DNA of 40,021 bases from Bacteroidota bacterium (GTDB taxonomy: Bacteria; Bacteroidota; Bacteroidia; Flavobacteriales_C; GCA-002722245): assembly GCA_026390935.1 (NCBI GenBank), contig JAPLEZ010000064.1:1-40021 (forward strand), written 5' to 3'. The translations under genes were made by a program, and so were the position numbers. The notes beneath the pieces were generated by a model, which saw only the letters and a program-made list of their open reading frames with translations, had not been told where the DNA came from and ran no database searches. Below are positions 8-1,682 of the stretch, in pieces; positions within the stretch are counted from its first letter, which is position 1; each line of letters opens with the position of its first letter.

Positions 8-355
8 TCAAAAAAAAGGTTTTCCATCTAACAATACCTTCTTTACATATTCACCTTGCGCTTTCAGCACGCCATTTTCCAAAGAAATTCCTGGCATTTT
101 TTTAGCCAGCTCTTCCACCGTTGCATCAACATTAGTTTTGTATGAAGACGCGTTGTATTGAATGGTATCGTTTTTAGTGACTACACCAACAGCGCGATTG
201 ATTTTAATTGCTTCTGTAGTAATCGTTTTTACTGAATCTTTCTTATGAATTGAAGTTGTATCTAAACTATCAATCAATTCTTTCTTCTCAGTTGCCACTT
301 GCGCGAAAGCATGAATTCCAATCAGTAAAAAAAAGAGAATCAGGTTTACTTTCAT
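8..355 (-). CDS. N-terminal part of an outer-membrane receptor-like protein, cut by in-frame TGA
   Basis: The product begins with a signal peptide (MKVNLILFFLLIGIHAFAQ) at the ATG at 355. An upstream in-frame ATG at 442 would run translation through a terminator hairpin, so 355 is preferred. Residues 60-115 read like the plug segment of Bacteroidota TonB-receptor or outer-membrane beta-barrel proteins: a DTIQYNAS-type strand, then VEELAKKMPGI, AQGEYVKKV and DGKPFF. In this family the last motif normally continues GDDP. Here the next codon is TGA (8-10) and the codons after it are GAT GAT (Asp Asp), so frame is kept and only the Gly codon (GGA) appears changed to TGA. The 115-residue product would have no barrel. 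The usual N-terminal carboxypeptidase-regulatory-like domain is also missing. The rest of the gene lies outside the window, so whether it is a pseudogene or a base-call error is open. Confidence 0.6.
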   Translation of the reverse strand: MKVNLILFFLLIGIHAFAQVATEKKELIDSLDTTSIHKKDSVKTITTEAIKINRAVGVVTKNDTIQYNASSYKTNVDATVEELAKKMPGISLENGVLKAQGEYVKKVLLDGKPFF

Positions 356-384
356 AATCGCAAAGGTAAGACTCCTAACGAAAA

Positions 385-427
385 AAAAGATTAAAAAAAA
401 TGTCACCTGTGGGGCAGGTGACATTTT
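385..427 (-). terminator. perfect 13-bp intrinsic terminator or attenuator
   Basis: Arms at 397-409 and 415-427 are exact complements (stem AAAATGTCACCTG, loop of 5). Read on the minus strand, the hairpin runs straight into eight T and then another T-rich stretch. It stands between a promoter at 564-595 and the receptor ATG at 355. Confidence 0.8.
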
Positions 428-557
428 AGAGGGATAAAACAATAAACAACTTTATAAGGACAAAATCTCTTTTCAGCCTATTATTTAGCTTACAACTTGA
501 GTAATAGAAAGAACGTTTATGAACCGAAAATCAAAAGTGCCTTACAACTTTAACCTA
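388..557 (-). ncRNA. candidate small RNA or attenuated 5' leader (about 170 nt)
   Basis: No plausible ORF lies between the receptor start (355) and the rpoD terminator (773). On the minus strand this interval has a good Bacteroidota promoter (564-595) and, about 150 bases downstream, a perfect 13-bp hairpin with a run of T (385-427). Promoter, gene-free body and intrinsic terminator together are what a stand-alone small RNA looks like. The alternative is a regulated leader for the receptor gene, with the hairpin as attenuator, because the receptor ATG lies 42 bases beyond the hairpin. The body contains a repeated octamer, GTTGTAAG, but I found no long end-to-end pairing that would suggest 6S RNA. 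The 5' end is estimated from the promoter. Confidence 0.35.
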
Positions 558-563
558 GTGCTG

Positions 564-595
564 CAAATGTACATAACGTTTCCCTATGAAAGCAA
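564..595 (-). promoter_or_regulatory. Bacteroidota-type promoter, minus strand
   Basis: On the minus strand TACATTTG (571-564) matches the -7 consensus TAnnTTTG exactly. TTG (595-593) sits 21 bases upstream as the -33 element. The expected start of transcription is near 556-558. Confidence 0.6.
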
Positions 596-772
596 GTTTT
601 TTTTACCAAATTTTCGTTCATCCTTGAATTAACTAGGAAAAAAACGTTTTAAAATAGATTACGTTTTCTAAGTAAAAGTACGTGCTGCATATTTCGTTTC
701 CACAAAATATTATTTAGAACAGACTGATATTGAGTAGCGTAAATAAGTCTGCCAAGAAGCTCAAAAAACAAA

Positions 773-818: not shown

Positions 819-1682
819 TTAACCTAAATAAGACCTTAGCAATTTGCTTTTGGTATGGTGTTTCAATCTTCGGATGGCTTTTTCTTTGATTTGGCGCACA
901 CGTTCACGTGTCAATCCATGTTTATTGCCAATTTCTTCCAAAGTATAAGCATGAGGTAAGCCTATTCCGAAGAACATTCTTAGCACATCAGCTTCACGTT
1001 CGGTTAAAGTAGAGAGTGATCTTTGTATTTCGGCGTGCAACGACTCAGAAATTAATTTTCTGTCGGCAGTTGGAGAATCATCATTTTGAATAATATCAAT
1101 CAAACCATGATCTTCGCCTTCCTGAAAAGGAGCATCCAAAGAAGTGTGTCGGCCCGAAATGCTGATGGCTCCCACCACCTCATCAATCTCCATTTCCACT
1201 GCTTCCGCAATTTCTTCCACAGTTGGTTCTCTTTCTAGTCGTTGTTCCAGATCAGAGATACCTTTTTTAATTTTTGTAAGATTACCTACTTTATTCAAAG
1301 GCAAACGAACCATTCTGCTTTGATCGGCAATAGCCGCAATGATAGATTGGCGAATCCACCAAACGGCGTAGGATATAAATTTAAAACCTCTTGTTTCGTC
1401 GAATCTTTGTGCCGCCTTAATCAAACCTAAGTTTCCTTCGTTGATCAAATCGGGTAATGACAATCCTTGGTTTTGGTACTGTTTCGCTACCGAAACCACA
1501 AAACGAAGATTCGCTGTGGTTAAGCGTTCTAGCGCTTGTGCATCGCCGGCTCTGATTTTAACAGCCAATTCTACTTCCTCCTCAGAGGTAATCAATGTTA
1601 CTTTACCAATTTCCTGCAAATACTTATCTAAAGTAATGCTATCCCTGTTGGTGATGGACTTGGTAATTTTCAGCTGTCTCAT
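819..1682 (-). CDS. rpoD: RNA polymerase primary sigma factor, RpoD/SigA type
   Basis: The protein directs RNA polymerase to housekeeping promoters. It is 287 residues, the usual length of the Bacteroidota primary sigma factor, which lacks the long region 1.1 and the insert of the E. coli protein. Region 1.2 starts near DSITLDKYL. Region 2 is nearly canonical ([29 protein letters not shown], then [15 protein letters not shown], the part that opens and reads the promoter -10/-7 element). Region 3 follows ([12 protein letters not shown]). Region 4 ends in [17 protein letters not shown], the helix-turn-helix that reads the upstream element. A TATTTTTG box on the minus strand at 1725-1718 could be its -7 element, though no upstream TTG is at proper spacing. 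It has its own terminator at 773-802. Confidence 0.97.

Follow-up and report, generated by a model that had tools for sequence, protein, structure and literature searches.

Genes and promoter elements at the rpoD locus

At one end of the window (i.e. the whole stretch of DNA that was analysed, 40,021 nucleotides in length, which corresponds to the entire contig C34), a gene for an extra RpoD-type sigma factor (paralogue a; positions 819-1682, minus strand) is located directly upstream of a segment predicted to specify a small RNA of about 165 nt (393-559, minus strand), and this is followed by the gene for an outer-membrane receptor (8-355, minus strand). The RNA lies downstream of the same rpoD gene, and in the same direction, in all five genomes of the genus, and the order of a divergent leucine-rich-repeat gene, rpoD and the small RNA is also the same in all of them. 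The sequence-only reading had pointed to the rpoD neighbour and asked if it is conserved; the adjacency holds in 5/5 genomes, but that reading had missed that this rpoD is an additional, genus-specific paralogue. Each genome of the genus carries three RpoD-type genes, which in the genome studied here are found at positions 819-1682 (minus strand) of the window, G000:C35:24739-25599 and G000:C129:2791-3657. In a phylogenetic tree, copies b and c group with the RpoD and the second RpoD of the sister genus, respectively, and copy a forms a branch of its own, which among the genomes sampled is present in this genus only. The sequences of copy a are 93-100% identical within the genus and show about 71% identity to copy b. 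As the helix of region 4.2 is almost unchanged in paralogue a, a different promoter preference for it is not evident.

The promoter of the predicted RNA contains a -7 box, TACATTTG, of the Bacteroidota type TAnnTTTG (564-571, minus strand), which is present in 5/5 homologues at a constant distance from the RNA, and a -33 TTG (593-595, minus strand) located 21 bases upstream of it, which is found in 4/5 genomes and is absent in G004. An exact -7 box with a TTG at this spacing had been described earlier, and both elements were again read at 571-564 and 595-593. In Flavobacterium, the -7 box occupies positions -12 to -5 (PMC9723704), and from this placement the start of the RNA is computed at about position 559, within two bases of the start at 557 that was proposed earlier. 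A sigma-70 scan does not cover Bacteroidota promoters and it is thus uninformative for the promoter of this RNA.

While the two promoter boxes were correctly recognized in the sequence-only reading, an array of GGAAACG boxes in the same region was overlooked. One of these (box D; 577-583, minus strand) lies between the -33 and -7 elements, and it is invariant in all five genomes, in each of which five bases separate it from the -7 box. Of the others, box A (GGAAACG; 695-701, minus strand) is likewise invariant in 5/5 genomes, box B, (G)AAAACGTAAT (662-668, minus strand), is conserved, and box C (640-646, plus strand) is an inverted copy which reads CGTTTTT on the minus strand, has the form CGTTTC in the relatives, and retains its position in the upstream alignment. 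The combination GGAAACG-N5-TAnnTTTG has the RNA locus as its sole location in each genome of the genus, the remaining matches having a shorter spacing. The pattern formed by boxes A and B also occurs once per genome, at the RNA locus, and the reversed control gave zero matches. Based on its sequence, the array looks like a dedicated operator.

Architecture and conservation of the predicted RNA

When each of the five sequences was folded alone, a common plan was obtained, viz. an unpaired 5' tail, a long stem, a large loop containing the core, a U-rich 3' tail and a terminator. The 5' end is formed by 15 invariant bases, CACTAGGTTAAAGTT (546-560, minus strand), which are identical in 5/5 genomes and largely unpaired. 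The long stem (452-547, minus strand), which is closed by UUGUAAGG (547-540) and CCUUAUAA (459-452) and shows 11 pairs changed on both sides, holds in its apical loop region an invariant 20-base core, TATTACTCAAGTTGTAAGCT (487-506, minus strand), which is the longest invariant run of the region and a candidate seed. It is followed by a conserved, unpaired U-rich 3' tail (429-451, minus strand) with CCCUC and the third copy of a GUUGU motif, of which there are three copies in four genomes and two in G003. The intrinsic terminator (397-427, minus strand) is a perfect 13-bp stem with the loop CCCCA, in which 4 pairs have changed on both sides, and the T run consists of eight T at 400-393, four of which belong to the stem; a perfect 13-bp hairpin followed by eight T was thus found as earlier described. 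At two other loci of the genus (L050:1501-1612 and L051:1501-1602), a 3' module consisting of CCCUUUAAAAA, a hairpin with a C-rich loop and a T run is also seen, and this hairpin module is possibly a common terminator style of the genus.

The unpaired stretches of 15 and 20 bases are invariant and the stems between them vary by paired changes. In total, 15 of 44 pairs have changed on both sides, a number that was reached in none of 500 shuffles, with controls in which the structure was slid giving 2-4; this covariation was scored on the same five sequences that also yielded the structure. Of the 31 bases around the core, 77% are invariant across the five genomes; the corresponding values are 48% at the end of the rpoD coding sequence and 9% in the gap that follows this gene. 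It had been argued earlier that the strength of the promoter and the terminator speaks for their use; that the region is more than a chance occurrence is shown by its presence in five genomes, with invariant -7 and GGAAACG boxes and compensatory changes in the hairpin.

The stretch earlier described as gene-free over some 150 bases extends to about 165 bases lacking a conserved ORF, as no reading frame conserved across the five genomes was found within the interval. If the locus were a gene for a small protein, then short frames such as those seen in single genomes could represent it; however, no frame is common to the five, and the changes in the stems obey the rules of base pairing rather than those of codons, so that this explanation can scarcely be entertained.

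Distribution and relationship to known RNAs

In a DNA search, each of the other four genomes of the genus that were examined gave a match to the region (E values 4e-79 to 2e-24), with no convincing match in other relatives. The -7 box and box D, the hairpin and the covarying stems are retained in 5/5 genomes of the genus, which answers the earlier question of their conservation in related genomes. When 395 genomes of the class, representing 197 genera, were searched with a covariance model constructed from the five sequences, these five were the sole matches, and none was obtained in the 390 genomes outside the genus; as strict filters on large sets can miss weak relatives, the restriction to the genus holds at this sensitivity. 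The small RNA was also not found in the viral contigs or plasmids searched, and a search of named genomes recovered the four known relatives, an unrelated chance match in Campylobacteraceae, and nothing else. Weak model matches elsewhere (L047-L051; 27-32 bits) were considered as possible relatives and rejected, as they consist mostly of the terminator part alone. A record titled Chryseobacterium gleum isolate LE-02apr19-18 contains a contig with identity to G001 and groups with the genus, and it is probably mislabelled.

The sequence-only reading could not match the RNA to a known family, and an Rfam search, both at the gathering cut-offs and at E 5, likewise assigned none; a match to BTnc231 was weak (16.9 bits versus a cut-off of 80.4). 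The RNAs GibS and FopS from Bacteroides, in which an unpaired, conserved 5' seed mediates the pairing at start codons (PMC7366714, PMC11697453), resemble the RNA described here in being intergenic, in having their own promoter and terminator, in their size (about 65-145 nt) and 5' single-stranded seed, and in being restricted to a genus or family. However, the Rfam models of GibS and FopS do not match this RNA, which differs from them in its lack of any Rfam match and its other promoter boxes, in being present in a single copy adjoining a sigma factor gene, and in carrying an invariant loop on a long covarying stem. Rfp18 from Flavobacterium is similarly a structured small RNA of Bacteroidota that is conserved within a genus and for which base pairing by a stem-loop is predicted (PMC9723704); the comparison with it is by description rather than by sequence, and the RNA reported here is missing from the remaining genomes searched within the class. 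Like 6S RNA and 6S-Flavo (RF00013 and RF01685), the RNA has a stable stem with a large conserved unpaired part, and its link to a sigma factor is by gene position; however, it shows neither a match to these covariance models nor a central bubble, and the neighbouring sigma factor is an extra one that is not clearly the main one. The RNA most likely represents a new genus-specific family of a known kind of small RNA. It adds an undescribed RNA family for freshwater Bacteroidota, a phylum in which knowledge of small RNAs is scarce beyond Bacteroides and Flavobacterium.

Interpretation of the locus

Besides a 170-nt RNA, the sequence-only reading had proposed a leader that controls the downstream gene by attenuation. 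If the transcript were a leader of this kind, then the gene following it should remain the same and be dependent on it. The receptor does follow the RNA in four of the five genomes, in which it lies on the strand of the RNA and begins about 205-220 bases past the RNA start; however, in G001 another gene is found at this place. This gene (L041:5324-5776), which directly follows the small RNA and replaces the receptor, encodes an unrelated glycine-rich RNA-binding protein with an RRM domain. Further, a separate -7 box, TACCTTTG (361-368, minus strand), belongs to the receptor and lies just before its ATG at 355, and an intact TAnnTTTG occupies the equivalent position in G002 and G004, with G003 showing a degraded form, TATCTTCA, there. 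The terminator is also perfect in all five genomes, and the predicted folds show no apparent competing antiterminator. A conserved linkage to a gene lacking a separate promoter, as is expected of an attenuator, is thus not seen, and we regard control of the receptor by attenuation as very improbable. The receptor itself had been described as interrupted, but no biological interruption is present: its frame matches the intact homologue in G002 and is disrupted only within its final few bases, where the contig starts (window base 1 being contig base 1), and the interruption is most simply explained as a contig-end effect. The N-terminus of this receptor falls short of that of the G002 homologue by about 60-80 residues.

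The 170-nt RNA, the other alternative in that reading, fits the conserved promoter, fold, terminator and rpoD neighbour, together with the lack of a conserved ORF or Rfam match. As its own promoter and its own intrinsic terminator are present in five genomes and no frame is conserved, the locus has the features of an intergenic small RNA, and we infer that it probably specifies a stand-alone small RNA (about 165 nt) whose transcription is regulated and which most likely acts by base pairing with mRNAs; the case for this is drawn from five sequences of one genus. According to this interpretation, RNA polymerase would start near 559 from the Bacteroidota -7 box and stop at the terminator at 427-393, and a putative regulator acting on the GGAAACG array, which has one box within the core promoter and the others 80-140 bases upstream, would switch the RNA on or off. 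The transcript would then fold as a long covarying stem presenting the invariant loop (core 506-487), with tails beside the stem, viz. the invariant single-stranded 5' end and the U-rich 3' part, and its pairing with mRNAs would most likely take place through the loop and the 5' end. A regulated promoter, invariant single-stranded seeds, a covarying scaffold and a terminator together point to the anatomy of a trans-acting small RNA. In a search for complements of the core allowing up to 3 mismatches in 20, scattered single sites but no target with long complementarity were found, and the duplex energies with the start regions of the three rpoD genes and of the neighbouring genes did not exceed those of shuffles.

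The RNA could instead bind a protein, so that the repeated GUUGU(AAG), which occurs in the 5' tail, the loop and the 3' tail, serves to titrate an RNA-binding protein, e.g. of the RRM type, rather than to pair with mRNAs. Three copies of GUUGU in four genomes exceed chance (shuffles 0.0015-0.01 per genome), an RRM protein gene directly follows the RNA in G001, and RRM proteins of Bacteroides are reported to bind single-stranded stretches of small RNAs (PMC11697453). However, this motif was picked after the sequence had been inspected, G003 has just two copies of it, and the RRM neighbour is seen in 1/5 genomes, and hence titration is considered unlikely. If the RNA were to act in the manner of 6S RNA, by binding RNA polymerase with the neighbouring sigma factor, then its constant adjacency to an extra principal sigma gene, the large conserved region inside its long stem, and the lack of a 6S match in a search of the lineage would all be accounted for. 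The missing 6S constitutes weak evidence, as RF00013 has a low sensitivity for this phylum and the matches to RF01685 elsewhere in the class are all below the cut-off (such sub-cutoff matches to 6S-Flavo are seen in some members of the class and none in this genus). As the RNA matches neither model even at E 5, is confined to one genus, and has a large loop at the end of the stem instead of a bubble flanked by two arms, a 6S-like function appears quite improbable.

Two features of this small-RNA family are uncommon, viz. its invariable association with an extra principal sigma factor and its unique box array. It is conceivable, though rather unlikely, that the extra RpoD paralogue and the RNA form a genus-specific regulatory pair, in which the RNA, driven by the array, would be the dedicated partner of the sigma factor, either in a 6S-like manner or at the level of mRNAs. 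The pairing with a sigma factor gene and a control array found only at this locus provide a testable entry to the question of how this lineage gained a new regulatory module.
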